A DNA stretch of 64,000 nucleotides from Limnothrix sp. FACHB-406. Lineage in GTDB: Bacteria; Cyanobacteriota; Cyanobacteriia; CACIAM-69d. The DNA is taken from assembly GCF_014698235.1 (NCBI RefSeq), contig NZ_JACJSP010000001.1, positions 248,001 through 312,000 of the forward strand, written 5' to 3'. The position numbers and the translations under genes are program-made. Of this stretch, positions 4,494 through 47,659 are shown piece by piece (the first letter of the stretch is position 1; each line of letters starts with the position of its first letter). The notes under the pieces are model-generated. The model saw nothing but the letters and a program-made list of their open reading frames with translations, searched no databases and was not told where the DNA came from.

Positions 4494-4550
4494 TAGGCGC
4501 TTCGGGTGGGGTAGGGCGTGGATCGGCGTTGGTGATTTTGGATCGATCGC
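4494..4550 (+). pseudogene. Decayed duplicate of the oxoprolinase gene start
   Basis: These 57 bp match 4850-4906, the region spanning the oxoprolinase start codon, with only a few substitutions and the same orientation (offset 356). In this copy the ATG has become GTG, and the sixth codon TGG has become TGA, so it cannot be translated past five residues. It and the intact copy bracket the DUF2283 gene. Confidence 0.8.
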
Positions 4551-4568: not shown

Positions 4569-4808
4569 ATGGATTCAAACCTGAGCCTTAGTTACGATCG
4601 CACGGGTGACAGCCTCCTCATTGTCATTTGTCCGCCCTATCCCGAACAAGAAACCGAAGAACTGGGTGATGGTTTGCTCGCACGGTTCAACCCTGACACC
4701 AACGACATTGAAGCGATCGAAATCTTCTTCTTTTCCCAACGCCTCCAAACCGATCGCCCCCTGCAACTTCCCCTTTGGGCCGATTTGCGCCTTGCGATCG
4801 CCCCATAG
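4569..4808 (+). CDS. DUF2283 domain protein
   Basis: A 79-residue protein showing the DUF2283 pattern: LSYDRTGDSLLIVI near the start, then a polar segment and GLLARFNPDTNDIEAIEIFFFSQRL. Members are small beta-rich proteins often next to DUF4258 genes in arrangements suggestive of toxin-antitoxin pairs. No DUF4258 partner was found beside it. The gene sits between two copies of the 5' end of the neighbouring oxoprolinase gene, so it probably arrived as an inserted cassette. Confidence 0.8.
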   Translation: MDSNLSLSYDRTGDSLLIVICPPYPEQETEELGDGLLARFNPDTNDIEAIEIFFFSQRLQTDRPLQLPLWADLRLAIAP

Positions 4809-4873
4809 CGCAACGGACTAACCGATCCGCTCCTATGATGAATCGAGATTAGGCGCTTCGGGTGGGGCAGAGC

Positions 4874-7800
4874 ATGGATCGGCGTTGGTGGTTTTGGGTT
4901 GATCGCGGGGGCACGTTTACCGACATTGTGGCGCGGCGGCCCGATGGGCGGCTGGTGGTGTATAAGCTGCTGTCGGAAAACCCTGATCGCTATGCCGATG
5001 CGCCCGTCCAGGGGATTCGCGACCTGATGGGATTAGCCGCCGATGAGCCGATCGACTTGGCGCAGATTGGGGCGATCGAGATGGGAACCACTGTCGCCAC
5101 CAACGCCCTGCTGGAACGCAAAGGCGATCGCACCGTGCTGGTGATCACCGAAGGGTTTGGCGATGCCCTGAAGATTGGCTACCAAAACCGACCGGATATT
5201 TTTGCGCTGGAGATTCGCAAGCCCGCGCCGCTCTATGAACGGGCGATCGAGGTGCGGGAACGGTTGAGCGCCCAAGGCGAGGTGGTGCGCCCCTTCGACG
5301 CGGCCGCCCAGGCGGACTTATTGGCGCAACTGAAAGCGGCGCGGGCCGAGGGTTGCACCAGTTGCGCGATCGCCCTGATCCATGGCTACCGTTACCCCCA
5401 GCATGAGCACATCGCGGCGGCTCTGGCGGAGGCAGCGGGGTTTGAGCAAATTTCCGTGTCCCATCATGTGAGTCCGCTGATTAAGCTGGTTAGCCGCGCC
5501 GAAACCACCGTGGTCGATGCCTACCTGTCGCCCGTGCTGCGGCGTTATGTGAACCAGGTGCGATCGACCCTGGCGGGGCCGGACAGTGAGGCCTTGGCGG
5601 GCAAGCTGTTTTTTATGCAGTCCAACGGCGGGCTGACCGATGCCGATCGGTTCCGGGGCAAGGATGCGGTGCTGTCGGGGCCGGCGGGCGGCATTGTCGG
5701 GGCGGTGCAAACCTGCGTGGCGGCGGGCTTTGAGCAAATCGTCACCTTTGACATGGGCGGCACGTCCACCGATGTGGCCCACTATGCGGGCGAGTATGAG
5801 CGGCAGTTCGAGACGGAGGTGGCGGGGGTGCGGCTGCGGGCCCCGATGATGGCGATCCATACGGTGGCGGCGGGCGGCGGCTCGATTTTGCACTTCGATG
5901 GTCAGCGCTACCGGGTGGGGCCCGACTCGGCGGGGGCGAATCCCGGCCCGGCGGCCTACGGGCGCGGCGGCCCTCTGACCGTTACCGATTGCAATGTGCA
6001 GCTTGGCAAGTTGCACCCGGACTTTTTCCCGGCGGTGTTTGGCCCCGAGGGCGATCGCCCCTTGGACAAGGCGATCGTGGCGGAACGGTTCGCGGCCCTC
6101 ACGGCGACGATCGCCCAGGCCACCGGCGATGGTCGCAGCCCGGAAGCGGTGGCGGCCGGGTTCCTGGCGATCGCGATCGAGAAAATGGCAGCGGCGATTA
6201 AGCAAATTTCCGTCCAGCGCGGCTACGATTTGGCGCACTACACCCTCTGTTGCTTCGGCGGGGCGGGCGGCCAGCACGCTTGCCTATTGGCGGAAGCGTT
6301 GGGGATGACGCGGATTTTTATCCATCCCTACGCCGGGGTGCTGTCGGCCTACGGGATTGGGCTGGCGGATGTGCGGCAAATTGGTGAACGGGCGATCGAG
6401 CAGGTCTTGGAACCGGGGGCGATCACCGCGTTGGAACCGAGCTTTGGCGACTTACAAAGGTCACTGGAGCCGCAATTGCCGGGATTCCAGGAAGCGATCC
6501 GCACGGCCCGGCTGCGCTACGGCGGCACGGATTCGCCCTTGGTGGTGAGCTGGCCGGCGGCGACGGAACCCGACCCGGCGGGCTGGTTGCGCGATCGCTT
6601 CGAGGCAATCCACCGCCAGCGCTACGGGTTCGCCCTGCCCGATAAGCCGGTGGTGATTGAGGCGATCGCCCTGGAGTTGGTGCGCCATAAAGATCTGCCG
6701 CCGGAACCGCTGCTGGTGGCCAGTCGATCGACTCCGCCGGAACCGATCACGACGATTCGGATCTATACGGCCGATCGCTGGTGGGATGCGCCGGTCTTTG
6801 GGCGATCGGACTTGCAACCGGGCGATCGGATCGTCGGGCCAGCGGTGATTGTGGAACCGACGGGCACAAATGTGATTGAACCGGGCTGGGCGGCCACCTT
6901 GGGCGATCGGGGCGGCCTAGTCCTCGAAACCCTCGCCCCAACTGACCCGGACAAGGGGCTTAAGCCCCTTGCTGCCAACCGTTCCGATGATCTAATCGAT
7001 CCATCCGCAAGTCGGCTCAACTCTGAAGACAAGGGGACACAGTTCATTAACGCCCCAAATCTCGACAGCAAGGGGCTTCAGCCCCTTGTCTCCGACGACG
7101 AGCCAACGCCGCAACCCGATCCGGTGCGGTTGGAGATCTTCAACAATCGGTTCAGCGCGATCGCCGAGCAGATGGGCGCAACCCTGCAAAACACCAGCTA
7201 TTCCGTGAATATCAAGGAGCGGCTGGACTTTTCCTGCGCCCTGTTCGATCGCGCCGGGCAACTGATCGCCAACGCCCCTCACATTCCCGTCCACCTCGGT
7301 TCCATGGGCGAAACGGTCACGGCCCTGATGGCGGCGCGGGAGCTGCGGCCCGGCGATGTGTTTGCCAGCAACAACCCCTACAACGGCGGCACGCACCTGC
7401 CCGATATCACGGTGATTACGCCGGTCTGGTTGCGATCGCCCGCCGGAGTCCTGAGTGATCGCCCGGATTTCTTCGTCGCCTCCCGCGGCCACCACGCGGA
7501 CTTGGGCGGCCTGACCCCAGGATCGATGCCACCCCACAGCCACTCGATCGCCGAAGAGGGCATCCTGTTTGACTTCCTGCCGATCGTCCACGCCGGGGAA
7601 TTCCTAGAGGCTGACGTGCTGGCGCAACTGGCTGATAATCCCTACCCCGCCCGCAACCCGGTGCAAAACCTGGCGGACTTGCAGGCGCAAATTGCCGCCA
7701 ACGAGCGCGGTTGCCAGGAATTGCAGCGCCTAGCGGATACCTACGGAGCCGCCACGATCCAAGCCTACGCCGGGTTTGTGCAGGACAACGCCGCCGCCTC

Positions 7801-14842: not shown

Positions 14843-16645
14843 CTATGCCTGCAAGGCTTCGGTGATTTTGGTTTGCAACGTGCTGACCAACTCCGCGATC
14901 GCCACTTCTTCGGCCGTGGCCGTCGCCCGCGTCACCAGTTCCACCTTGCCCTGGGCGATCGCCCGGCCCGTCACCACCCGGAACGGAATCCCGATCAAGT
15001 CGGCATCCTTGAACTTCACGCCGGCCCGCTCTTCCCGATCGTCCAGGATCGTTTCGATGCCTGCTACATTCAGGTCGCTGTAGAGCTGCTGGGCGATCGC
15101 CATTTGGTTTTCGTCGGCAATGTTCGGCACGGTGACGATCGCTTGGTACGGGGCGATCGCCACTGGCCAAATCACGCCATTTTTGTCGTGGGACTGTTCC
15201 ACCGCCGCCTGGGCAATCCGCGACACCCCCACGCCGTAGCAGCCCATCCAAAAGGGCTGGCTCTCGCCGGATTCCGTCGTGAAGGCCGCGCCCATGGCCT
15301 GGGAATATTTCAGACCCAGTTGAAAAATGTGACCGGCTTCGATGCCCCGCGCTGATTGCAGAATTTGCGAGGGGTCATGCACCGCCCGATCGCCCGGCCG
15401 CGCCAAGTCCAGCTCCACCACTTCCGGCAGTTTGTATTGAGCGCCCCAGTTCGCCCCCACCACGTGATAGCCCGGTTGATTCGCGCCAGTCACAAAGTTC
15501 TGAAGCTGGCTGGCGTTCGGATCCACGAGCCGCAGGAATTGGGGAGCCGTGTCCTTGGCCTGGGCGATGTGGTCGTCGCTCAAGTCTGGTGCAATGTAGC
15601 CCAGGGGCAAGGGTTTGGCGGCCCAGGCGGCTTGGGCATCCGCATCGGGCACTTTCAGGGCCAGCACCTTCGTGCCGCCGTAGTTCGGGGCCCGCTGGGT
15701 GATCGCGTTGAACAGCTTCACCTCGTTCACGTCCCGATCGCCCCGAATACTAATCAGCACCAGCACTCGCTTGCCGTTATCCAGCACGGCTTCATAGAGC
15801 ACGTTTTTCACCACCTGGGTCGGGTCGCACTTCAGCACCTCGCACAAGCGGGCGATCGTGGTGGTGTCTGGCGTTTCCAGGGTTTCAAAACTCGTAAAGG
15901 GCGAAGGAACCGCATCCACTGGCTGCGACACAGCTTTTTCCACGTTGGCGGCGTACTGCTCATCTTCCGTGAACAGGATTTCGTCTTCGCCCGTGTCCGC
16001 CAGGATCATAAATTCCTGGGAGGCGCTGCCCCCGATCGCCCCGGAATCGGCCTGCACCGGCCGGAACTTCAGGCCACAACGGCGCAGCATATTTCGATAG
16101 GCCTGATCCATCGCGTCGTAGGTTTCCTTCAGGCTTTCGGGCGAGGTGTGGAAGGAATAGGCATCCTTCATAATGAATTCGCGACCCCGCAGCAGGCCAA
16201 AGCGCGGGCGAATTTCATCGCGGAATTTGGTTTGAATTTGATACAAATTCACCGGCAGTTGGCGATAGGAACGGATCAGTTCCTTGGCCACGGTGGTGAT
16301 CACTTCCTCGTGGGTGGGCCCGAGCATCAGCTCCCGATCGTGGCGATCGCTCAGGGTAAAGGCGATTCCTTCTGCTTTGTATACATCCCAGCGGCCGGAC
16401 TCCTGCCACAGTTCCGCCGGTTGCAATTGCGGTAGCAGGCATTCTTGCGCGCCCGTCGCGTCCATTTCCTCGCGCACAATCTGCGACACCTTTTGCAGCA
16501 CGCGCCACATCAAGGGCAAATAGGCATAAATCCCGCTACCGATTTGGCGGATGTAGCCCGCACGCAGCAACAGCTTGTGGCTGGTGACAACGGCTTCGGC
16601 GGGGTCTTCACGAAGGGTGACGAACAGGGCTTGGGACAGACGCAT
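14843..16645 (-). CDS. proS: Prolyl-tRNA synthetase
   Basis: A 600-residue bacterial-type class II synthetase charging tRNA-Pro. The start [49 protein letters not shown], the motif 2 region [25 protein letters not shown] and the motif 3 region [18 protein letters not shown] are all present. The insertion (editing) domain spans roughly residues 230-400 and the C-terminal anticodon-binding domain follows. Its first 45 bases and upstream region are duplicated in decayed form at 17466-17575, beyond an MNT/HEPN toxin-antitoxin pair. Confidence 0.97.
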
Positions 16646-16710
16646 AAAACAGCCAGGAGCAATGCACAGTCCAGAATATCGCAGTTGGGGCGATCGGGCA
16701 GGGCGATCGC
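16601..16710. repeat. Long direct repeat, intact copy (proS 5' end)
   Basis: This 110-bp segment covers the first codons of proS and its upstream DNA. It matches 17466-17575 (offset 865) with about eight substitutions. The two copies flank the MNT/HEPN pair. Confidence 0.88.
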
Positions 16711-16780: not shown

Positions 16781-17074
16781 ATGACACTCAACGACTTAAC
16801 CCCAGTGCTCAGAGCACGCATCAAAGAAATTGCGGCGCAACACGGAGCCTACAATGTCCGCATTTTTGGCTCCGTTGCCCGTGGGCAGGCTGATCACCAT
16901 AGCGATCTGGATCTATTGGTGGATTACGATCTCAGTCGCATTAGTCCTTGGTTTCCGGTGGGGTTGATTCGAGATTTAGAAGACTTACTCGCCATTAGAG
17001 TTGATGTGGTGACTCCTGCCGGTTTGAAAGATCGAATTCGCCAAGAGGTTTTACAAGAAGCCTGCCCCTTATGA
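16781..17074 (+). CDS. mntA: MNT-type nucleotidyltransferase antitoxin
   Basis: A 97-residue minimal nucleotidyltransferase. The catalytic signature is [20 protein letters not shown] (Gly30-Ser31, Asp42, Asp44), with a third acidic residue likely in RVDVV. In characterised MntA-HepT systems the antitoxin adds AMP to a Tyr of the HEPN toxin and silences its RNase activity. The stop overlaps the next start (ATGA), so the pair is translationally coupled. The pair was apparently inserted upstream of proS, with duplication of the proS start. Confidence 0.9.
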
Positions 17075-17400
17075 GAAATGACCTTGAGCGAATCAAAGAT
17101 ATCCAAGAGGCTATTCAAAAAATAGAAAAATATGCACAAAGAGGTGAGAAAGAGTTTTTTGAAAATGAATTAATTCAAGGCTGGATCCTACTTCAACTAC
17201 AAATTATTGGCGAGGCGGCAAGAGCGATCAGCAGGGAAACCTATAGTCAATACCCAAATATTGCTTGGCGTGATATTATTGGCTTCCGAAATCTCTTGGT
17301 TCATGAATACTTTCGAGTTGATCTAAGAATTGTTTGGAGAATTGTTGATCAAGAGATTCCTGAATTGAAATCTCAAATTCAAGTCATTCTTGACTCATAA
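17071..17400 (+). CDS. hepT: HEPN (DUF86) toxin
   Basis: A 109-residue HEPN-domain RNase toxin. The active motif RNLLVHEY places Arg73, His78 and Tyr80 in the R-x4-H-x-Y arrangement; in the family Arg/His form the nuclease site and the Tyr is the AMPylation target. The rest is helical, with IIGEAARAIS typical of DUF86. More AT-rich than its neighbours. It overlaps mntA by 4 bp and follows it in the same operon. Confidence 0.9.
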   Translation: MRNDLERIKDIQEAIQKIEKYAQRGEKEFFENELIQGWILLQLQIIGEAARAISRETYSQYPNIAWRDIIGFRNLLVHEYFRVDLRIVWRIVDQEIPELKSQIQVILDS

Positions 17401-17465: not shown

Positions 17466-17575
17466 GGGGTCTTCACGAAGGGTGACGAACAAGGCTCAGG
17501 ACAGACGCATAAAACAGCCAGGAGCAATGCACAGTTCAGAATATTGCTGTTGGGGCGATCGGGCAGGGCGATCGC
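17466..17575 (-). pseudogene. Decayed duplicate of the proS 5' end
   Basis: This is about 93% identical to 16601-16710, in the same orientation relative to proS. Read on the minus strand it starts ATGCGTCTGTCC and then TGA replaces the CAA codon of real proS, so translation stops after four residues. It marks the far border of the MNT/HEPN insertion. Confidence 0.85.
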
Positions 17576-31243: not shown

Positions 31244-31317
31244 GGTTTTTGCTCGCAAATAATGGCTAAATTCAGGTGTCTGTTTCGGCTTTTCAGATAT
31301 CTTCCGAAATTGGCTCA

Positions 31318-31400
31318 TGAACTTGAGTTTTGAAACTGGCTCATGAACTTGAGCTTTGAAATTGAGCTTTGAAATTGAGTTTTGAAATTGGGTTCAAAGA
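31318..31400. repeat. Degenerate tandem repeats
   Basis: Variants of the unit TGAGCTTTGAAAT are repeated about five times in a row upstream of the hydrolase-like gene. They resemble replication-slippage products. Similar arrays occur at 32219-32400 and 37620-37990. Confidence 0.5.
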
Positions 31401-31434
31401 TGGGGCGAAGGGTGAATGCAACAACGGTGATTTC

Positions 31435-36030: not shown

Positions 36031-36117
36031 TGCCTGAGACAGGTAATCCCATCTAGCGCCTAAGCGGGTGTCTGAGAAGCAACTTGAGAGGCCTGCAAAG
36101 CACGAGTCATCGTGGAG

Positions 36118-36137
36118 CAAGGGGCTTCAGCCCCTTG
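36118..36137. repeat. CAAGGGGCTTCAGCCCCTTG palindromic repeat, intergenic copy
   Basis: Identical to the 7069-7088 copy inside the oxoprolinase gene. A truncated relative (AGGGCTGAAGCCCC) lies at 34585-34598. It is located between the peptidase gene and the shared terminator. Confidence 0.85.
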
Positions 36138-36239
36138 TTTTCGATGATCGATGAGACTCGCAAGGTGGCAGTGATGACTTTTCAGATATCCCCTAAAATT
36201 TCGCGAACTTCGCTGCTAAAATCTGGCTGCTAAAAAACG

Positions 36240-36267
36240 GCTTCCCCCTGATCGATCAGAGGGAAGC
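36240..36267. terminator. Bidirectional intrinsic terminator
   Basis: GCTTCCC, CTGA, TCGA, TCAG and GGGAAGC form a long hairpin. It is followed by GCTTTT on the plus strand and by CGTTTTTT on the minus strand. It sits between the convergent M15 peptidase and hisC genes and can end both transcripts. Confidence 0.85.
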
Positions 36268-36331
36268 GCTTTTGTTGCAAATTTTTCAGCAAATTTTGGC
36301 AGCACGGTTCAGCAAATTGCAGCCCGATCGC

Positions 36332-37492
36332 CTAGCGGGAGGCAACGGTTTGCGCCAGGGCCACCCGCATTCGATCGACAGTACGTGCATTTTCCGCCGG
36401 GCTGCCCACGGTAATACGCAATCCGCCTCCTGTGTGACGAATCAGGGTTCCCTGCTGCTTAAGCTGCTGAACCAAATGAGCCATGGCTTCATCGGTGTTG
36501 GCGGCTCCCTTCAGGCGAGCATAAAGAAAATTCGCTTGGCTGTCCCACAGTTCCAGTCCTGGCAGGGCCCGTAACTGCTGGAGCAATCGATCGCGCTCCG
36601 TCAAAATTTCTGGGACGATCGCCAACAGGTCTCGGCGGTGGGCCAATGCGGCGAGGGCGGCCGCTTGGGTAAAGCTGGGCAGGTTGTAGGGTAGGCGTAC
36701 CTTTTCCAGAATGGCGGACAACTCGGGATTGGCGATCGCGTAACCCACCCGATGGGCCGCCAATCGAAACGCCTTCGAAAACGTCCGCAAAACCACCCAG
36801 TTGGGCCGCGCTTGCAGTTCGCCCACCACGGTGCGACGGCTGAATTCAAAATAGGCTTCGTCAATCACCACCAAAATATTGGGTGGCAGTCCCCGCAACC
36901 AGTTGAGTTCCGCCGTCGTCAGAGCGTTGGCGGTGGGGGAGTTGGGATGCACCATCCACACCACCCGCACGGGCGAGGGGGTCAGTTGCGCTTGGGCAAT
37001 GACCTGACGCGCGGCATCCAGATCAATTTCAAAGGTTTTGGGCGATCGGCCCACTCGTTCCACCGGAATTCCCAGGGTTTGGGCCAAAATCCCATACATG
37101 CCAAAGGTGGGCTGGGCCACCAACACGCGACCACGACCGCCCACACAGGTGGCAATCAAGATCGATCGAATTAATTCATCCGAGCCATTCCCCACGGAAA
37201 TTTGCCCAGGGGCGATCGCCTCCGCCGTGCCGTTGGCAATGGCCGAGCAGGCTTCATTCACGTATTGGGCGATCGCCCGCTTCAGATCCGTATGATCGCC
37301 TCCCGGGTAACGGTTAGTTTCAATCAGGTTCTGATAGGTTAAGCAGAGTTTTTCTTTCAGCGCTTCCGGCAACTGATAGGGACATTCATTGGTGTCCAGA
37401 CGATCAATCTCAACGCCCGTGGGTAACTCTCCCCCCGGGTGAGCCTGATAGGCGACAAACTCAACCAAATCTGGACGCAAAAACTCCAACAT
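36332..37492 (-). CDS. hisC: Histidinol-phosphate aminotransferase
   Basis: A 386-residue class II PLP aminotransferase converting imidazole acetol phosphate to histidinol phosphate. Visible: LDTNECPYQLP, NRYPGGDHTDLKRAIA, VGNGSDELI, VWMVHPNSPTANAL, VVIDEAYFEF and the PLP-lysine region RTFSKAFRLAAHRVGYAIA, then the C-terminal RHTGGGLRITVGSPAEN. Full length. No other his gene is adjacent, which is normal in cyanobacteria. It shares a terminator with the convergent peptidase gene. Confidence 0.93.
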   Translation of the reverse strand: MLEFLRPDLVEFVAYQAHPGGELPTGVEIDRLDTNECPYQLPEALKEKLCLTYQNLIETNRYPGGDHTDLKRAIAQYVNEACSAIANGTAEAIAPGQISVGNGSDELIRSILIATCVGGRGRVLVAQPTFGMYGILAQTLGIPVERVGRSPKTFEIDLDAARQVIAQAQLTPSPVRVVWMVHPNSPTANALTTAELNWLRGLPPNILVVIDEAYFEFSRRTVVGELQARPNWVVLRTFSKAFRLAAHRVGYAIANPELSAILEKVRLPYNLPSFTQAAALAALAHRRDLLAIVPEILTERDRLLQQLRALPGLELWDSQANFLYARLKGAANTDEAMAHLVQQLKQQGTLIRHTGGGLRITVGSPAENARTVDRMRVALAQTVASR

Positions 37493-38237
37493 GGTGCGGG
37501 CTACAAATGGCTGTTAGGGAGGTTGACCGGCCTTCCGTCTTCAAACAACGGAATGGGCTGCACAAAAAATCTGAAACAAACCCCAAAAATTCAATTTCAA
37601 CTGCAATTAGATGGGCAACACCGATATTGATCTGCTGTTGATCTGTTATTGATCTGTAGTTAGTCTGTGATTTGGCTAGGATCCCCCCCTTGAATCGCGA
37701 ACTGAATCACAGGTAGAACACAAACTTAATCTAGTTCAAGCAAGCCAGTCTAATCAAGCTAGTTTCATTGGGCTAATTTAGTCGGGCTAATTCGCTCAGG
37801 CTCATTCAATCCGACTAATTCAACCGGGCTGATGCAATGCATTGGATAAGTTGATTAGTTGGGGCTTCCATAGCACCGGGTTGAAAAGCCACCAGTTAAC
37901 GCAAAAATGATCAGCATTGAAACAAGAATTGATTGGCGATTTAACCTAAAGATGGCTTGAAGATGGCTTGACCTGAAGGTGGCTGGATGGAGCTGAAGGT
38001 TCTTCAAAAATGATCTAGTCCCAAAACCACGGCGGCCAACATTTTCTCAAGATTTTTGAGGATGCATTTGGATGATCGCCCTCATCATACCGAGATTCTC
38101 CTTGCAAAAACACTGGACTCCAGAAAACGCAATCGAAAACCGGTTGGGGCCTCCGCTCTGCCCGACCTTGGGGAGCGATCGTCGCTGGCCTCGGAGGCGA
38201 TCGCTCCAGCAGCACATTCAGCGGCCCCATCGGCTCC
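37493..38237. other. Intergenic region with degenerate tandem repeats
   Basis: About 745 bases without a supported gene. Short imperfect tandem units fill much of 37620-37990: TTGATCTGYTR (near 37630), then GGGCTAATTYA-like units (37770-37830), then GATGGCTTGAA (37950-37985). The repeats look slippage-derived. The last 200 bp are higher in GC, with short open frames that lack support. Confidence 0.5.
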
Positions 38238-39431
38238 CTATAGCCCCGTCAGGTTGACCTGAACCGATCGCGCCACTCGATTGGCCTTGGCCCGGGCCTG
38301 GTCGATCGAGTCAGCCCGCGCCAGGGCCACCCCCATCCGCCGATATTGACGGGTGCTGGGTTTGCCAAACAACCGCACATCCGTGCCCGGCTCCATCAGG
38401 GCTTCCGCCAACCCGTCATAGACCACCGACTCTGCGGGATCCGACTGGCGATTGGCCAAAATGGCAGCACTCGCAGCCGGTTCGTAAACCGTAATTTCTG
38501 GGATGGGCAACCCCAGAATGGCCCGCAGGTGCAACTCAAACTCATTCAGGTTTTGGGAGATGAGAGTGACCATGCCCGTGTCGTGGGGGCGGGGCGACAG
38601 CTCAGAGAAAATGGCAGCGTCAGGCGTGATGAAAAATTCCACCCCAAAAATGCCCGCGCCGCCCAGGGCCTCCGTCACCCGTTGGGCGATCGATTGGGCC
38701 TGTTTCAACAGCTCCGGAGCGATCGGGGCCGGTTGCCAGGATTCTTGATAGTCACCGCGTTCTTGACGATGGCCGATCGGGGGGCAAAACAACGTTGGCC
38801 CCGCCCACTGCCGAATCGTCAGCAGCGTGATCTCCAGCTCAAAGTGAATAAATTCCTCAACAATCACCTTGGACTGGTCACCGCGCCCCTGTTCGGTGGC
38901 GTATTGCCAAGCGGTGGTTAGCTCCTCGGGCGATCGCACCACGGATTGGCCCTTGCCCGACGAAGACATCACCGGCTTCACCACATTCGGAAAGCCAATC
39001 TCCGCCGCCACGGCCTGCAATTCCGCCAAGGTGGCCGCATAGCCATAGCGAGCCGTGCGCACCCCCAACTCGCCCGCCGCCAAGTCCCGGATTCGATCGC
39101 GGTTCATGGTGTAGTGGGTGGCGGCGGCCGTCGGAATGACGGTGATTCCGCGTGCTTCAAATTCCGCGAGCTTTTCGGTGCGAATTGCTTCAATTTCCGG
39201 AACGATGAAATCTGGGCGATGCTTCGTCACGATCGACTCCAGCGCATCCCCATCCAACATTGAGATGACCTCTGCCTCGTCGGCCACCTGCATCGCGGGC
39301 GCATTGGCATAGCGATCGACCGCAATCACCTGGTTGCCCAGACGCTTGGCCGCGATCGCAAACTCTTTGCCTAACTCGCCGGAGCCAAGCAGCAAAAAGG
39401 TTTTAGGCAAAGTAGAACCGGTGACGGACAT
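38238..39431 (-). CDS. purT: Phosphoribosylglycinamide formyltransferase 2 (formate-dependent)
   Basis: A 397-residue ATP-grasp enzyme that formylates glycinamide ribonucleotide using formate and ATP in purine synthesis. Hallmarks: [83 protein letters not shown] and [25 protein letters not shown]. Full length. A monocistronic gene on the minus strand, followed upstream by prmC on the same strand. Confidence 0.96.
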
Positions 39432-39698
39432 GAACTTTCAACACACCATAGCTGAACGATCATCAACGCCGCAGCCCCAGACCAGAGGCCACGTTTTCCT
39501 TGAACATTTTTGCCTGAACGCTTTCCTGGATGCAGTCAACGCCACTGAACTGGATTCGGCTCTTTCTGGAGGCGGCACTGATTCCAGCGCAACCACCCGA
39601 TCAAGCACCCATCCCAGTCCCGATCGCCATCCCGATCGCCCCTTAGAAATCGCTCAGGCAACCCAGGGCAAAAGCCCGTTCAGATAACCTTCCTATTA

Positions 39699-40607
39699 TC
39701 ACGCGGTGGGGGCGATTTCCACAGAGAGCGGGCGACGCAGCGGTTGGTATCTAGCCGAAACAAATCGATCAATCCCCGCCAAATCCCGATGGGCCGTAAT
39801 CTCCTGATAAGACCCCTTGGCCCACAACAGTTCCATCACCGTCGGAGCCTGCCCAGCCATCACCTCCACCAACCAAACGCCACCCGGTCGGAGATAGGCC
39901 GGAGCTGTCTTCACCAAATGACGCAAGCAATCGAGGCCATCGGATCCCCCATCGAGCGCCCCATGGGGTTCATGGTCAGCAACTTCCGGCTGCAATGCAG
40001 GCACTTCCGCACTCGGGATATAGGGCGGATTGGAAACCATCCCCGCCAGGTGGCCCGCCAGATCCGTCAGGGGTTCAAACCAGTTCCCCAACGCAAGGTG
40101 AATTCGGTGATCCAGCCCTGTGTGCATGGCGTTGAGATGGGCAATTTCCAGCGCCGCTGTCGATCGATCCACCGCCCAAATTGTTGCCTCCGGCATGGCT
40201 TCCGCCAGCGCCAGGGCGATCGCCCCGCTCCCCGTCCCCAAATCCGCCCAAACACCCCGCCGCAAGAGGGCATTCGTCGCCGTCAGCTCCCAAGCCAAGT
40301 CCACAATTAACTCCGTCTCGGGCCGAGGAATCAGCACCCCGGGAGACACCTGCAGCCGAAAATTGCGCCAGCCCACCACCCCAGCCAGGTACTGCACCGG
40401 TACGCGATCGATCAATCGCCGCTGCCACAGTTGATCCAAGCGTTCTAGGTCGATTCCCGAAGGCAAATCGCCCACCTGGAGCCGCAGCCGCAGCCGATCG
40501 ACCCCGGCCCATTCAACCAAGAGCCAATCCAGTTCCCCAATGGGCACTTGCTGCTCCGATGCTTGGCGGCGCGCTTGCGCATACCAAGTCCAAAAATCCG
40601 CTGTCAT
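39699..40607 (-). CDS. prmC: Peptide chain release factor N5-glutamine methyltransferase
   Basis: A 302-residue SAM-dependent enzyme methylating the Gln of the GGQ motif in release factors. Motifs: [43 protein letters not shown] (SAM site) and the catalytic NPPYIP. Shared family features such as [17 protein letters not shown] near the N-terminus are present. It lies between purT and the inserted restriction-modification cassette. The plus strand is also open across it, but that frame is a composition artefact. Confidence 0.95.
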
Positions 40608-41065
40608 GGATCACACCGCTCCGCAATTGCCACAAAGCCCCGAGTGAACAGTGCCCCGCTGCGATCGCTTTGTACCGCTTCATGGCCCTTCTCGCAATGA
40701 CCGGGCCACAAATTGTGCCCATGGAACCCGCCCAAAAATCAACGGCAACCATTGGCCCGAGCACCCACTCAGGCGATCGGCAATCCATTTCAGGAATGAT
40801 TTCGGCTAAAACACGCCCGCCAAGGCCAAAACGCAGCGATCGCACGCCAGCACAGAACACCTCAGGCGCGGTTGTTAATTCTGAACTGCAACACTCTCCC
40901 CAGATCTTGAGCCTCAGATCTTTTGATTTTTGCAAGGAATTTCATATCATGGCAAAGTCAGAGATCTTGCAAGGGCAATGCCCAATCCTTAGTCATTATC
41001 AGTGGGTGCTGTTAGCCCAAATTCCTTACCGTCACCATCAATTAATAGCTGTTAATAGCTTTCAT
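40608..41065. other. Spacer between prmC and the methyltransferase gene
   Basis: Contains the duplicated ileS 3' end (40815-40847) in otherwise unassigned sequence; base composition drops in GC after about 40860, where the cassette begins. TTAATAGCTG is repeated near 41042-41060, just upstream of the methyltransferase start. Confidence 0.45.
40815..40847 (-). pseudogene. Duplicated fragment of the ileS 3' end
   Basis: 32 of 33 bases match 43187-43219 in the same orientation. Read on the minus strand the surrounding bases give [14 protein letters not shown] followed by a stop, versus LACDRCVSALAGTF at the true IleS C-terminus. Together with the intact copy it brackets the restriction-modification pair. 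Confidence 0.8.
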
Positions 41066-42295
41066 ATGATTCAAGCCTTAAGTTTTTTTTCAGGGTGTAT
41101 GGGCCTTGATTTAGGTCTCGAAAAAGCGGGTATTGAAGTGTTACTCGCATCAGAAATTGATCCAGCCGCTCGACAAACTATTCAACTGAACCGTCCCTAC
41201 CTACCCCTATTAGGCGACGTGAGAGATTACACAGCCCCCGAAATTCGATCCCTAGCCAAGCTAAAAGCTAATCAGGATCTTGATTTAGTTGTGGGTGGGC
41301 CACCTTGCCAAGCTTTTAGCAGTGCTGGTAAACGTCAAAGCTTTAATGATGATCGTGGCAATGTTTTTCTATTGTTTATTGATTTGGTAATTGAATTAAA
41401 TCCTCGTTTTTTTGTCCTAGAAAACGTCCGAGGATTGCTATCAGCAACTCTCCAGCACCGCCCCATGCACCTGCGCGGCAAACAAGCACCACCCCTGAAT
41501 CCAGAGGAAAAACGAGGTAGTGCCCTATTGCACATCATTCAAAAAATTAAATCTGCTGGCTATAGTGTTTCATTCAATTTATACAATGCTGCTAATTTTG
41601 GCTCTCCTCAACAACGAGAACGGGTGGTGATTGCTTGCAGTCGCGATGGGCAGAAATTGCCCTATTTAACACCAACCCATTCTGAAACAGGGCTGTATAA
41701 TTTGCCGCGATGGCGCACGCTACAGGATGCCTTAGCGGGCTTACCCACCGAAGGTCATGAATTTGTGAAATTCCCTGAAAAGCGCTTGAAATATTATCGC
41801 CTGTTAAAAGCCGGACAATATTGGCGAGATTTACCACCAGAATTACACGCGGAAGCCCTTGGCGGTTCCTATCAAGCAGTGGGCGGAAAAACGGGTTTTT
41901 ATCGCCGTTTAGCCTGGGATAAACCATCGCCCACGATCGTGACTCATCCAGCAATGCCGGCTACCGATTTAGCACATCCTGAGGAAGATCGTCCCTTAAG
42001 TGTTCAAGAATATAAACGCTTACAGGAATTTCCAGATGATTGGAAAATTGCCGGTGGATTGCTCGATCTCTATCGCCAAATTGGTAATGCAGTGCCCTGT
42101 TCGCTAGGGAAGGCGATCGGCCAAATGTTACTGGACTATCTCAATGGTCAAACAGAAACCAAATATCCTGACTTTCCCTATTCTCGTTACTCTAAAACTG
42201 ATGACGTGAGCTGGTGGGCCGACGTTGTTGGCAACTCAGAACAGCCTGAACATGGTCATGACAAATCACAGCAGCTTTGCTTAGATATCTTTTGA
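41066..42295 (+). CDS. DNA (cytosine-5-)-methyltransferase
   Basis: A 409-residue type II C5-methyltransferase. Motif I is [18 protein letters not shown], motif IV with the catalytic Cys is [13 protein letters not shown], followed by [21 protein letters not shown] (motif VI), [12 protein letters not shown] (motif VIII) and [21 protein letters not shown] (motif X). The target site cannot be read. The start at 41066 puts motif I next to the N-terminus; an in-frame ATG at 40949 with a better AAGGA site would add 39 residues without family similarity. More AT-rich than the host genes. Its stop is one base from the stop of the convergent partner gene. Confidence 0.92.
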
Positions 42296-42296
42296 T

Positions 42297-43088
42297 CTAT
42301 TGCTCACTTTGAAAAGCGAGATAAGCCGCTTCAATATTCAAAATCATGGTTTTTACGCTGTCTTCAACTAGACCATACTCAATCCCAATCTTTGACCAAA
42401 ACTCCTGACCGCAAGCCCGAGGAATTGTGGGACTAGAAAAGTTCCAAGTCCCTAAACAGAATGCAGCAGCAAATAAGGAAAATTCATGAATAGCTAACTC
42501 TTCCTGAGATCTGGGCTTTTGGCTACCGGTTAATGTGCCAGGTGTCGTTTTGAGTTGCGTGAAGATCGGGTTGGTGTGGCCCACCTCAAAAATAATGATG
42601 TCTATTCCTGTAATTTTGATCCCAAAGTCTTTTTCTGGGCTGATGGCATAAGGACTGATTTTAGCCAAATCTTCCCATAGTTGACCCATTTTGGTGCTTA
42701 AACTGCGAGAAATTGCATTACTAGCAGTAAAGAGTGTTGCACCACAGAGTTCATAGAGATTTTTGGGATTTTCAGCAGCTTGGCGAGGCGATCGCACTAG
42801 GGACGGAATCGAGTCGATAAATTGCTGGGCAAATGCATGACATTTTTGGGTGATCGCCTCTGATTGGTTTTGGCGATCGAGTACAGAGTTGTCTTGCTGA
42901 TCGGCTGTAATTTGTTCACGGCAATAGTCCAGCAATAGCGGCTTGATGGCAGTTGCTCGCTGATAGGCAGTTTGCAAACTCGGTTTGATTTGTGGAGGAA
43001 CTGTTATTGACTTGGCATAGGTATCAATCAACGTTGCCCGATCGCCCAAGGAGAGTGATCGCAAGTCATCTATTTTCAAATCATTCAT
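42297..43088 (-). CDS. Probable cognate type II restriction endonuclease
   Basis: A 263-residue protein convergent with the C5-methyltransferase, with stop codons one base apart. The segment GIDIIIFEVGHTNPIFTQLKTTPGT fits a D-(x)n-QxK version of the PD-(D/E)xK nuclease core and is followed by helices typical of type II enzymes. The N-terminal half (LGDRATLIDTYAKSITVPP onward) is helical. No named restriction family is recognised by eye. Context makes the endonuclease role likely: a restriction gene paired with a methyltransferase inside an insertion-with-duplication footprint. Confidence 0.72.
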   Translation of the reverse strand: MNDLKIDDLRSLSLGDRATLIDTYAKSITVPPQIKPSLQTAYQRATAIKPLLLDYCREQITADQQDNSVLDRQNQSEAITQKCHAFAQQFIDSIPSLVRSPRQAAENPKNLYELCGATLFTASNAISRSLSTKMGQLWEDLAKISPYAISPEKDFGIKITGIDIIIFEVGHTNPIFTQLKTTPGTLTGSQKPRSQEELAIHEFSLFAAAFCLGTWNFSSPTIPRACGQEFWSKIGIEYGLVEDSVKTMILNIEAAYLAFQSEQ

Positions 43089-43138
43089 AAAGTCTGGCCG
43101 AGATGATTAGCAGAGCAGAATCATTCAGCATGTTCCAG

Positions 43139-43162
43139 GTAGGGGCGCACCGATGTGCGCCC
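43139..43162. repeat. GTAGGGGCGCAC palindromic repeat, copy 2
   Basis: GTAGG precedes GGGCGCAC-CGAT-GTGCGCCC (43143-43162), the same element as at 11997-12020 with a different four-base loop. It is located just downstream of ileS, on the cassette side. Confidence 0.75.
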
Positions 43163-43177
43163 GCAATTTCGCCAGTT

Positions 43178-46081
43178 TTAAAAAGTGCCCGCCAAGGCCG
43201 AAACGCAGCGATCGCACGCTAAGGGATGTTCCTCAATCGTGCCGACCGAAGGCGAATAGTTCCAGCAGCGATCGCACTTGTGCCCCTCGGCATCCACCAC
43301 GCCCACACCCAGCGGCTCCGATTCAAAGCTGTATTTCAAGCCCTGGAGCCGATCGACTCCATCCAGCAATTCCACCTGGGAGGTGATGAACAAATAGCGC
43401 AATTCATCGACCCCGTTCGTGTCATCGCCCAGGGAAGAAACCGGGTTGAATTTTGACAGTTGATCGCGCAGGGAATCATCGGCCACATAGAGCAGCAACT
43501 TCGCTTCCAAGCTGGCCCCGATCGCCCCGTCCTTGCGGGCCGCTTCCAAGACCTTGTTGGTTTCCATGCGGATTTGGCGCAGGCTTTGCCACTTTTCCGC
43601 GAGGGCGGGTTGCGACCAATCGGGATCGATCGCCGTCCAACCGGCTTGGAACACCGATTGATGGGATTTGGTGTAGGGAATCGCTTGCCAGATGTCTTCG
43701 GCCATGTGGCAGAGCACCGGGGCGATCGCCTTAGCCAGATTTTCTAGGGCGATCGCCAATACCGTTTGGCAACTGCGGCGACGGAAGGCGGTCGGCGCAC
43801 TGATGTAAAGTCGATCTTTGGCGATATCCAGATAGAAATTCGACAGATCGACCACGCAGAAATTCTGCACCGTTTGGAAGAATTTGAAGAATTGGAAACT
43901 GTCGAAGGCTTCCGTAATTTCGCCAAAGACTTCCGAGATCCGATGCAGCAAATAGCGATCGAGTTCCGGCAGTTGATCGTAGGGAACTGCATCTGTTGCC
44001 GGGTCGAAATCGTGCAGGTTTCCTAACAGGAACCGCGCCGTATTCCGGATCTTGCGGTACACATCGGCCATCTGTTTCAGGATCGTTTTTCCGATCGGCA
44101 CATCGGAGGAATAGTCCACCGACGACACCCACAACCGCAGCACATCCGCGCCGTAGGGCGGGTTTTGTTTTTGATCCTTGCCGCCGTTGATGATTTCCAG
44201 CGGGTCGATGATGTTGCCCAGGGATTTGCTCATTTTGCGGCCCTGTTCATCGAGCGTGAACCCGTGGGTCAACACCGTTTTATAGGGCGCATGGCCGGAG
44301 TTGGCGACGCTAGTGAGCAAGCTCGATTGGAACCAGCCCCGGTGTTGGTCGGAGCCTTCCAGGTAGAGATCGACCGGGTAGCCCAGGCCGCGCTGTTTGG
44401 CCACCGCCGCCCAGGAGGAGCCGGAGTCGAACCACACATCCATCGTGTCCGTGCCTTTGGTGTAGGTGCGGCCGTTGCTGCGGTAGGGTTCCGGCAACAG
44501 TTCCGCTACGGACAGTTCCCACCAGGCATCGGAGCCGCGCTGGGCGAAAATGTCGCGCACATGGGCGATCGTCTCGGCGTTCATCAGCACCTCGCCGGTT
44601 TCCGCGTCGAAGAACGCCGGAATCGGCACGCCCCAACTGCGCTGGCGGGAAATGCACCAGTCCGATCGCTCGCCCACCATCGACTCGATCCGGTTTTGGC
44701 CCGTGGCCGGAATCCAGCGCACCTGCCCGATCGCCGCCATGGCCGCCTCCCGGAAGCCATCCACCGACGCGAACCACTGCTCCGTGGCCCGGAAGATCGT
44801 CGGCTTCTTCGTCCGCCAATCGTAGGGATATTTGTGAGCGTAGGGTTCCCGCTTCAGCAGGGATCCCGCCTCGGTCAGGGCGGCGATTACCGCGTCGTTG
44901 GCATCCTTCAGCACGTTCAACCCGGCGAAGGGGCCCGCTTCCTCGGTAAAATTCCCCCGATCGTCCACGGGCGACAACACCCCTAACCCGTACTTTTGCC
45001 CGGTGATGAAGTCCTCTTGACCATGGCCGGGAGCCGTATGCACCAGCCCTGTCCCCGATTCCGTGGTGATGTATTCGCCGCCGATCACGACGGGTGAGGT
45101 GCGATCGAACAGCGGATGCTGGTACTGGCAATGCTCCAACAGCGCACCCTTGAACGTGGCTTGCACCGTCAGGGCCGCCCCGAAGGTCTCCGCCAGCGAC
45201 TCCGCCAAATCCTTAGCCACCACGAGATAGCGCGGCAGGCCCGCCAGTTCTCCGGCCGTGTCCACCACCGCGTAATCCAAGGCCCCATTCACGGCCACGC
45301 CCAAGTTGCCGGGGATCGTCCAGGGGGTCGTAGTCCAAATCGCCACGCCCAAGTCCGCCGCGAACTCACCCAGCACCGGTTGAGCCGCCGCGCTCAGTTC
45401 CGTCACCCGAAACGCCGCATAGATCGACTGGGAAATGTGCCCCTCGGGATATTCCAACTCCGCTTCCGCCAAGGCCGTTTGGGAACTGGGACTCCAATGC
45501 ACCGGCTTCAGGCCGCGATAGATATAGCCCTTGGTGAACATTTCGCCAAAGACTTCCAGTTGCGCCGCCTCGTATTCCGGCTTCAGGGTCAGGTAGGGAT
45601 TTTCCCAGTCGCCCCACACGCCCAAGCGCATGAATTGGGCTTTTTGGATCTCGACCTGTTCGAGGGCGTAGGCTTTGGCCTTTTGGCGCAGGGCGATCGG
45701 GGTAAGGCCGGCGCGTTCGTCTTTGCCCAGGGATTGCAGCACTTTCAGTTCGATCGGCAGGCCGTGGCAGTCCCAACCGGGAACGTAGCGCCCTTTGCGG
45801 CCGCGCAGCAGTTGGTAGCGGTTGATGATGTCCTTCAGGGTTTTGTTGAGGGCGTGGCCCATGTGCAGCGACCCGTTGGCGTAGGGTGGGCCGTCGTGCA
45901 GGGTGAAGGTTTCGCCGGGGTTGCCTGCTGCCAAGGTTTCGTAAATGTTGGCTTCTGCCCAAAAGGCCTGAATTTCCGGTTCGCGCTTGCTGGCGTTGGC
46001 CCGCATGTCGAAGGCGGTCTGGGGCAGGTTAACGGTGTCCTTATATTGGCTTTCGGCCTTGGCAGTTTTGTCGGCAGTCAC
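43178..46081 (-). CDS. ileS: Isoleucyl-tRNA synthetase
   Basis: A 967-residue class I synthetase. The HIGH-type motif lies in DGPPYANGSLHMGHALNK and KMSKS in LDEQGRKMSKSLGNIIDP; the CP1 editing region includes TTPWTIPGNLGVAV. The C-terminus carries the zinc-finger-like CDRCWNY and CDRCVSALAG. The start codon is GTG at 46081. It is full length. Its last codons are duplicated at 40815-40847, beyond the restriction-modification pair, but the intact gene end is here. Confidence 0.97.
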   Translation of the reverse strand: MTADKTAKAESQYKDTVNLPQTAFDMRANASKREPEIQAFWAEANIYETLAAGNPGETFTLHDGPPYANGSLHMGHALNKTLKDIINRYQLLRGRKGRYVPGWDCHGLPIELKVLQSLGKDERAGLTPIALRQKAKAYALEQVEIQKAQFMRLGVWGDWENPYLTLKPEYEAAQLEVFGEMFTKGYIYRGLKPVHWSPSSQTALAEAELEYPEGHISQSIYAAFRVTELSAAAQPVLGEFAADLGVAIWTTTPWTIPGNLGVAVNGALDYAVVDTAGELAGLPRYLVVAKDLAESLAETFGAALTVQATFKGALLEHCQYQHPLFDRTSPVVIGGEYITTESGTGLVHTAPGHGQEDFITGQKYGLGVLSPVDDRGNFTEEAGPFAGLNVLKDANDAVIAALTEAGSLLKREPYAHKYPYDWRTKKPTIFRATEQWFASVDGFREAAMAAIGQVRWIPATGQNRIESMVGERSDWCISRQRSWGVPIPAFFDAETGEVLMNAETIAHVRDIFAQRGSDAWWELSVAELLPEPYRSNGRTYTKGTDTMDVWFDSGSSWAAVAKQRGLGYPVDLYLEGSDQHRGWFQSSLLTSVANSGHAPYKTVLTHGFTLDEQGRKMSKSLGNIIDPLEIINGGKDQKQNPPYGADVLRLWVSSVDYSSDVPIGKTILKQMADVYRKIRNTARFLLGNLHDFDPATDAVPYDQLPELDRYLLHRISEVFGEITEAFDSFQFFKFFQTVQNFCVVDLSNFYLDIAKDRLYISAPTAFRRRSCQTVLAIALENLAKAIAPVLCHMAEDIWQAIPYTKSHQSVFQAGWTAIDPDWSQPALAEKWQSLRQIRMETNKVLEAARKDGAIGASLEAKLLLYVADDSLRDQLSKFNPVSSLGDDTNGVDELRYLFITSQVELLDGVDRLQGLKYSFESEPLGVGVVDAEGHKCDRCWNYSPSVGTIEEHPLACDRCVSALAGTF
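43187..43219. repeat. Direct repeat, intact copy (ileS 3' end)
   Basis: A 33-bp segment encoding the last residues of IleS. It matches 40815-40847 at 32 of 33 positions. The pair flanks the methyltransferase and endonuclease genes. Confidence 0.8.
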
Positions 46082-46333
46082 GGCGGTGTCGCTTGCGTCA
46101 TCAAAGGGTTGCAGTCCCTAAGATTCTACCGGCTGACGGCCGGGCTGGCGGGGTGGCTGAAATTCAAGATTGGTATAATGGTTTGTGAGGTTTTGTTGGC
46201 TGGGCGATCGTATACTGAACTGAAATTTAGATACTAAACTGAAATTCAGAATACTCAAAGTAGCTTAAAACCAGCAATCTTCGTATCGAAGCCTACTTTG
46301 TTTTTTAGTCAACTCTCAACTACATTCAGACTT

Positions 46334-47659
46334 ATGAAGGTTAAGCGAGATATCAGTCGAGGAGGCTTTGGAAGAGTGGAAGAAGTCATTCTTGCAGATG
46401 GTAGCTCTGTCGCAAGAAAAACATTTGATCCACTACCTAGTGTCAAGTCAGGAACTGACATCAACAAGCTTAGGAAAAGATTTAAAAAGGAAGTGTTGTA
46501 CCAGAAAAGCTTATCCAGTTCCAGTCAATTTTTTCTACCTGTTTTAGAATCCAACTTGGAGTGTGACAAGCCTTGGTTTACAATGCCCATGGCAGAAACT
46601 ACATTAGAAAAGTTTATTAAAAAGAATAAGGAAAATCCCGAGGAGCTAAAATCAGCACTATTTGATATTCTCAATTGCCTAGAAGAACTACATTCCCAGG
46701 ATCTTGTCCATAGAGACTTAAAACCTCAGAATGTACTATTGCATCAAGAAAATTGGAAATTATGTGATTTTGGATTAATCTTAGCTCATGGTGAAGACTT
46801 CACAGATCTGACATCTACAGATTCAGCAAAATGGGGATCAAAATTTTATTGTGCTCCAGAGCAAATGGAAAATTTCAAGCATGTAAAGCCACAAGCAGAT
46901 ATTTATTCATTTGGATGTATCTTACATGATATTTTTGACGGGTCTACAAGAATACCATTTGCTGAACATCGAGCCGAAGGGAACATTGGCTTCATTATCG
47001 AAAAGTGTACCAAGAAAGACTGGAAAAGAAGATATAAAAACATTTCGGCATTAAGAAATGCACTTTCATCATGCTTGACAACTTCTCGATTAACTCTAGT
47101 ACCAGGAGATGAGGAGTGGATAAACTATCTAAAAGATATCAGCATCCAGGAAAATTCAAAAGTTGACATTGAAAAACTAGGATTGTTTGTCAGATTTTTA
47201 AACAGATCCGAAGTCCTGAACCTAGATAATATTTTTAGAATAGTGGATGAAGGAATTCTTGAGAAAATACACACAAGCGATGAAGATTGCTGGGAAGAAC
47301 TGGCTAGTGCTTATTGTGAGTGGACACATCAGAAGTTTGTTTTTGAATACTGCGACGTTATCGTTAAGCGTCTGGAGAAAATTTTTGACTTAGGAAAGCC
47401 ATCACTCAAAGCAGAAGCAGCAGTAGCAATGGCTCGGCTTGGTGCAACTCATAATCGTTGGTTTGTTATGAAGAGATGCCTCCTTAAATGCTCTCCTGCA
47501 CTGACAGAATCAGTAGCAAACAGAATTAAAATGGAAATTCTGTCAAACGATGAGTCTCAGGGACATTTTCGGGTATGTGCATCTGCATTTAAGGGTGAGA
47601 GTATTCATTCTTTTCATCCACTTATTGCAAACATTTTGTTGAAGCATACCAATACTTGA
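46334..47659 (+). CDS. Hanks-type serine/threonine protein kinase with helical C-terminal region
   Basis: A 441-residue soluble kinase. It has a Gly-rich loop ISRGGFGRVEEV (Gly10-Gly13), a candidate VAxK lysine in SVARKTF, the catalytic loop HRDLKPQN (His126, Asp128), DFG at about Asp145 and APEQ; the kinase domain ends near residue 250. The rest (LGLFVRFLNRSEVLNL and on) is helical and resembles HEAT/ARM-like repeats, with no membrane segment. Strongly AT-rich with no GCGATCGC site seen, unlike the flanking genes, so likely acquired. Targets unknown; a defence or signalling role is possible. The ATG at 46334 is preferred to upstream TTG. Confidence 0.88.
   Translation: MKVKRDISRGGFGRVEEVILADGSSVARKTFDPLPSVKSGTDINKLRKRFKKEVLYQKSLSSSSQFFLPVLESNLECDKPWFTMPMAETTLEKFIKKNKENPEELKSALFDILNCLEELHSQDLVHRDLKPQNVLLHQENWKLCDFGLILAHGEDFTDLTSTDSAKWGSKFYCAPEQMENFKHVKPQADIYSFGCILHDIFDGSTRIPFAEHRAEGNIGFIIEKCTKKDWKRRYKNISALRNALSSCLTTSRLTLVPGDEEWINYLKDISIQENSKVDIEKLGLFVRFLNRSEVLNLDNIFRIVDEGILEKIHTSDEDCWEELASAYCEWTHQKFVFEYCDVIVKRLEKIFDLGKPSLKAEAAVAMARLGATHNRWFVMKRCLLKCSPALTESVANRIKMEILSNDESQGHFRVCASAFKGESIHSFHPLIANILLKHTNT

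Follow-up and report, generated by a model that had tools for sequence, protein, structure and literature searches.

A restriction-modification pair flanked by a duplicated ileS 3' end in Limnothrix, with tails that match two different relatives

The region downstream of ileS in Limnothrix sp. FACHB-406 raises the question of how small restriction-modification (R-M) and toxin-antitoxin units can move when they have no transposase. In the 64-kb stretch of this genome that we analysed (64,000 nucleotides, referred to as the window), the 3' end of ileS occurs twice, and a compact R-M pair lies between the two copies. The elements of the locus are the following.

39699-40607, minus strand: prmC (TIGR03534), the resident neighbour, directly downstream of ileS in the related genome G001
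40807-40847, minus strand: repeat copy 2, a remnant ileS 3' end with the resident, G001-like tail leading to prmC
40848-41065, no strand: spacer of about 218 bp from repeat copy 2 to the start of the methylase
41066-42295, plus strand: C5-cytosine DNA methyltransferase (PF00145, TIGR00675, PADLOC MTase_II)
42297-43088, minus strand: predicted type II restriction endonuclease of 263 aa, PD-(D/E)XK-like (by adjacency, alignment and model)
43178-46081, minus strand: ileS, isoleucine--tRNA ligase, intact (TIGR00392, 980 bits; zf-FPG_IleRS at the C-terminus), with its 3' end at 43178-43219
43179-43219, minus strand: repeat copy 1, the functional IleS C-terminus ending in ACDRCVSALAGTF and a stop, with a G002-like tail

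An earlier note on this DNA had reported that 33 bp encoding the IleS C-terminus recur at 40815 with one mismatch, and both the coordinates and the mismatch count proved exact: the 33 nt at 43187-43219 are present again at 40815-40847 in the same orientation. With its flanks, the repeat comprises 41 nt at 90% identity (40807-40847 and 43179-43219), and the copy within ileS is translated as ACDRCVSALAGTF followed by the stop. The frame was also said to stop in both copies, which is so, but the stop and the last two codons differ, being ACT TTT TAA in the ileS copy and GTG TTT TAG in the copy at 40815, outside the 33 nt. When the 90 nt around the left copy were used as a query against the 4.5-Mb genome, these two places were the only matches; by chance, two 3-kb stretches are expected to share a 33-mer with no more than one mismatch about 1e-10 times. 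The left copy might have belonged to an unrelated gene, a case that the earlier note had itself raised against its reading; we found that it is what remains of an ileS end and that it belongs to no other gene.

Between the copies (40848-43178) there is no transposase gene, no integrase gene and no terminal inverted repeat, and besides the R-M genes no gene of at least 60 aa lies on a plausible strand. The 218 bp at 40848-41065 have no counterpart in G001, G002 or the stretches of other relatives that were compared. The methyltransferase and endonuclease genes expected between the copies are found there as a C5-methylase and a predicted nuclease, arranged tail to tail. The methylase is well supported by its families (PF00145, 205 bits, E 2e-60; TIGR00675, 178 bits). 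Its frame is open further upstream, with an ATG also at 40949; however, homologues align from about residue 41 of that longer reading, so that the start is probably at 41066.

The 263-aa protein matched nothing in Pfam, NCBIfam or PADLOC, gave nothing useful in a sequence search of the PDB, and had no homologue in the plasmid, phage or IMG/VR collections. In a class-wide search, all 12 readable loci have a relative of the protein next to a related methylase, as have 52 of the 57 named loci from bacteria, most of them cyanobacteria; the family alignment contains invariant E139, D163 and Q178-x-K180. The AlphaFold model is of high confidence (pLDDT 93), and its comparison with known structures by VIA-align placed EcoO109I at the top (Z 11.8 over 187 residues; next Z 6.1), the rows below being mostly type II endonucleases too. 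Foldseek alone returned no match at E <= 0.001, and the restriction enzymes HindIII, BsaWI, AgeI and BamHI that recur in its list are all above that value. The EcoO109I-type PD-(D/E)XK type II endonucleases are thus the best fold match by a wide margin, with a C5-methylase partner in both cases; they differ from the present protein in sequence (9% identity) and in that many such enzymes have E-x-K where Q178-x-K180 is invariant here. On adjacency, alignment and model we take it to be the predicted cognate endonuclease of the methylase, and we infer activity for both enzymes.

The comparison with cassette-free relatives that the earlier note had called for was possible with the congener G001, which has no cassette at the same locus. 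Window positions 36216-40849 and 43190-46153 correspond in G001 to two adjoining blocks with a 32-nt overlap on one ileS end; prmC follows ileS immediately, and there is a single ileS end and no R-M genes. G002 (a further congener; named record RDXB01000042.1, an Oscillatoriales MAG; like G001, a draft assembly) is the occupied counterpart: window positions 41069-46157, that is, ileS and the R-M pair, are matched continuously, and then a different gene follows. No second copy of the ileS end was found in G002. DNA identity between the window and G002 is 84% in the R-M genes and 93% in ileS, and for this reason we regard G002 as a stand-in for the donor type and not as the direct donor; the R-M proteins are about 91% identical. 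prmC is present in a single copy in each of the six genomes searched, and the G002 protein is 69% identical in amino acids.

The surroundings of ileS vary in other ways. The prmC-purT-like block (window 38238-40607) is 96-97% identical to G001 and 68-78% to G002, the other loci being about 92-94% identical to both, and from these values it looks as if one lineage has had the block replaced or has moved it. In G002, another type II R-M pair, different from the first, lies upstream of ileS (L034:745-2888), so that ileS is bordered by R-M genes on both sides there; the corresponding place in the window is occupied by a Ser/Thr kinase gene (46298-47659) with weak PD-T4-6/Stk2-like hits. The same R-M pair is also found, truncated, in the distant cyanobacterium Fischerella thermalis PCC 7521, where its distance upstream of ileS is about 2.3 kb (L162:6067-9367), possibly a coincidence.

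We then compared the ends of the two copies. The ileS copy beside the R-M pair ends in GGC ACT TTT TAA AACTGGCGAAATT and the ileS of G002 in GGC ACG TTT TAA AGCTGGCGAAATT; both have the tail TF-stop, and the match continues into the intergenic DNA (AAA[AG]CTGGCGAAATT). The remnant beside prmC ends in GGC GTG TTT TAG CCGAAATCATTCC and the ileS of G001 in AGC GTG TTT TAG CCGAAATCATCCC, both with the tail VF-stop and with TAGCCGAAATCAT. Because x-F-stop closes most of the cyanobacterial IleS proteins that were read, each of the tails is an authentic ileS end. Had a single resident end simply been duplicated, we would expect one tail and insert sequence; since the two copies carry different authentic ends, the locus is probably not a simple duplication of one target. 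In this test of a single resident origin, the cores of the copies are nearly identical and the tails match two different relatives: the 33-nt core has one mismatch to its own partner, three to G002 and five to G001. The long target duplication proposed in the earlier note therefore holds as to the repeat and the empty site in G001, but strict duplication fits poorly, since the tails match different relatives. Among the informative sites within ileS, G002 is favoured only in the last 54 bases, by 8 to 2, so that any donor tract is short; a recombination breakpoint sought inside ileS and proS likewise revealed no long donor tract.

The ileS locus had been described as the third such event in 40 kb, involving different gene types, and both statements hold: gene-end repeats at 4494/4850 and 16601/17466 make three within 39 kb, at an oxoprolinase gene with a DUF2283-like gene and at proS with an MNT-HepT pair. 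Their elements are the following.

4494-4550, no strand: 57-nt copy of the oxoprolinase 5' region (left copy)
4569-4808, plus strand: DUF2283-like gene, the cargo (PF10049, E 1.7e-4, 22.2 bits, just below the Pfam cut-off of 23)
4850-4906, no strand: copy at the oxoprolinase 5' end, 89% identical
16601-16710, no strand: 110-nt repeat copy over the proS 5' end
16781-17400, plus strand: MNT nucleotidyltransferase (16781-17074, PF01909) and HepT-like RNase (17071-17400, PF01934), the cargo
17466-17575, no strand: second 110-nt copy of the proS 5' end, 95% identical

For the oxoprolinase event, the insert is shared by G002, where the copies are 100 nt long, and is absent from G001, which has a single copy. 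G001 is also a perfect empty site for the proS event, with one 110-nt copy. Outside the window, a DUF2511 lipoprotein gene lies between 58-nt copies of the 3' end of a chlD-like gene (identified by reading the protein), and G001 is empty at this site, with a 70-nt overlap. G001 has cases of its own in stretches chosen for being orthologous to the window. Two copies of the oxoprolinase 3' end enclose an MNT-HepT pair, adjacent to XisI/XisH (L082:7674-8511), and a Fic-domain gene is flanked by 49-nt copies of the proS 3' end (L082:17187-18958). The window lacks both this MNT-HepT pair and XisI/XisH. It also contains a short tandem array of 13-nt, GAAATTGAGCTTT-like units (31306-31404) and a dispersed hairpin-like repeat, AGCAAGGGGCTTCAGCCCCTTGT, at 36116-36147, 7067-7098 and 6950-6981, which is found near other insertion junctions as well.

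From what was observed, namely the repeat, the occupied site and the empty one, both tails and the R-M pair, we propose that recombination placed an ileS end linked to the R-M genes next to the resident one, a proposal to which we give about an even chance. A compact type II R-M pair, without transposase or integrase, would have been added between ileS and prmC in this lineage, arriving joined to its own ileS 3' end in the arrangement still present in G002. Recombination within the last tens of bases of ileS would have placed the donor end on the resident gene; the far end of the incoming DNA may have been joined illegitimately, a few bases before a GCGATCGC (HIP1) site in the resident ileS end, and the old end would have been left beside prmC as the 33-41 bp repeat. 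The incoming DNA could have been linear, integrating by homology on one side and illegitimately on the other as in natural transformation, or a circle taken up by a single crossover, and the pair may then have been retained through post-segregational killing. We infer the direction (gain, not loss), the recombination route and the order of the steps. The far junction abuts the repeat with 1-2 nt shared, and the ileS side is homologous to G002. This resembles homology-facilitated illegitimate recombination in natural transformation (PMC3240628), in which one side is homologous, the other has little or no homology, and foreign DNA comes to lie beside the homologous gene; that process, however, usually yields deletions at the illegitimate side and not duplications, whereas here the gene end is kept twice, and this counts against the proposal. 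So do the 33-nt core, which is nearest to its own partner as simple duplication would also predict, and the 218 bp upstream of the methylase, which have no matching source in the sequences compared.

A classical long target duplication, in which the R-M pair inserted into one resident ileS end and duplicated it, by a staggered break or by a template switch returning upstream of its departure point, with the tails diverging later, is in our judgement unlikely, if still a real contender. The target is single in G001 and double in the window, the proS event fits this course cleanly (110 nt present once in G001 and twice in the window, with the proS-side and far-side flanks as expected), and there is precedent: R-M insertion with long, variable target duplications is established by genome comparison in Helicobacter pylori and others (Nobusato et al. 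2000, through PMC1643837, PMC3874152 and PMC3031569). Against it stand the concentration of four of the five ileS mismatches in the last 9 of 42 positions, and the R-M-side tail being shared with G002 as an authentic ileS end. We also hold it unlikely that the arrangement predates the species split, which would mean that the repeats recombined in G001 with loss of the cassette and that a rearrangement removed the prmC side in G002. The window genome and G002 do have ileS and the R-M pair with the same junction, common descent would fit their protein identity of about 91%, and deletion between the repeats would yield exactly the G001 sequence. G001 could be such a deletion product, and the three species cannot fix the polarity because the ileS-prmC adjacency is absent in G002, G003 and G004, a point that also weighs against the proposed gain. 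Yet the unconstrained remnant differs from ileS at only one of 33 positions, the G002 prmC at 69% is not the plain orthologous neighbour that was lost, and the origin of the repeat would still need explaining.

A site-specific mobile element that attaches at gene ends with an integrase acting in trans, the repeats being its att sites, would account for the gene-end location, for the restoration of the gene and for several events within one genus. We consider it very improbable, since no core is common to the targets except HIP1-like words, the repeat length varies from 33 to 158, and no integrase occurs in any cassette read. Nothing was found in support of chance similarity or an assembly artefact beyond the draft state of G001 and G002; with a chance of about 1e-10 and independent assemblies agreeing on both flanks, its probability is negligible.

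We then asked how general the anatomy is. Scanning 2.05 Mb of this genome for repeats, we obtained 37 unique pairs, of which many lie within paralogous or repetitive genes; those at gene ends or between genes also enclose or adjoin a ParE pair, XisH next to MNT-HEPN genes, VapC and a sulfonate-type operon. Clean empty sites were demonstrated only for ileS, proS and chlD, and for the oxoprolinase pair through G002 against G001; four more repeat cassettes (ParE, XisH, sulfonate operon, VapC) have no clean empty site in G001 or G002. Four events in the 2.05 Mb have the support of a relative lacking the insert, and as three of these fall inside the 64-kb window, its density of events is not representative of the genome. 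In an unbiased comparison covering about 110 kb aligned from G001 C24, C100 and C16, no further clean insertion turned up, which indicates a low rate of such events. Another 392 kb of G001, selected solely for the length of the contigs, contained three unique repeats. One belongs to a DarT and ADP-ribosylglycohydrolase pair at the acnB 3' end (L284:13518-16727, that is, C24:233518-236727), the far side of which carries a 158-nt, 96% copy of that end; by its anatomy it is a close analogue of the ileS case, and no empty site was found among the genomes compared. The second encloses a VapC-type gene. A scan for repeat-flanked selfish cassettes, which the earlier note had suggested genome-wide, has over these 2.05 Mb, 0.39 Mb of G001 and the G001 stretches orthologous to the window yielded further repeats around such genes (ParE, VapC, Fic, DarT, MNT-HepT), and R-M or toxin-antitoxin cargo is indeed common; it is not exclusive, however, as the DUF2511 lipoprotein gene and the sulfonate-type operon are carried too.

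Other candidates did not belong to this class. The inserted segment at C1 397237 is not flanked by the repeat, the 146-bp repeat in G001 C100 is a dispersed MITE-like element and no target duplication, and the L186 repeat is IS-derived by its ORFs. The C100 element (about 146 bp; L286:10850-10990 and 15730-15890) has the inverted termini TAGGGCCTGTCGTC...GACGACAGGCCCTA and occurs also in C3 of the window genome (G000). Among the remaining repeats, C1 172379 is a complex locus and C3 1248 lies at a contig end. The same R-M family in other genera is mostly without flanking repeats (57 loci). Two loci of the family in other cyanobacteria have direct repeats: of 176 nt at L167:3520-6149, one copy being the 3' part of a neighbouring gene, and of about 60 nt at L200:5706-8109. 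On their sequences, these two are plausible candidates for further cases in other genera.

GCGATCGC lies at most 14 nt from a repeat end in five of the six gene-end events, against a gene-end-matched background of 3.4%; seven of 19 non-paralogous repeats examined show the same proximity, and one of 17 in the paralogue control. By eye, the two candidate repeats in other genera have no HIP1 at their ends. The pattern was spotted before the measure was chosen and the sets are small and partly hand-picked, so that nominal p-values are not to be taken at face value, and we treat HIP1 near gene-end repeats as a lead. It is tempting, if quite doubtful, to extend it to the genus, in which R-M and toxin-antitoxin cassettes would spread without a recombinase by joining at HIP1 words in or beside gene ends, the repeat being a by-product that keeps the host gene intact. 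HIP1-associated recombination in cyanobacteria has been reviewed, the role of HIP1 being unresolved (PMC4390886); the likeness to it is the presence of GCGATCGC near one end of most gene-end repeats here.

The ileS locus is a fresh case of a known pattern, and the earlier interpretation was right in kind. As in the H. pylori R-M insertions, the genes are flanked by a direct repeat in the range of tens to hundreds of bp, of which a related genome has only one copy, and there is no transposase; the ileS locus differs in that the repeat is a gene 3' end whose copies bear two different allelic tails, and in that the same anatomy is found in this genus also around toxin-antitoxin and other genes. 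We found no report of such insertions in cyanobacteria or for toxin-antitoxin genes in a search that was thin on subscription papers, so that novelty is weakly supported. What appears new are the allele-specific ends revealing recombination, the extension to toxin-antitoxin genes and the post hoc link to HIP1.

One genus thus offers several occupied and empty sites, including sites beside the essential genes ileS and proS, at which the movement of small R-M and toxin-antitoxin units can be followed, and the recombination at ileS can be reconstructed from sequence because the two copies keep the tails of two parental alleles. Since a full ileS would always have been kept, an essential gene could serve as a landing site, and the locus points to a route by which addiction genes could, with no transposase, become established next to essential genes and leave these intact. 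If gene-end duplication is a general footprint, addiction cassettes would be findable genome-wide by the repeat alone and, if the link to HIP1 is true, HIP1 would be a genome-wide set of landing sites.
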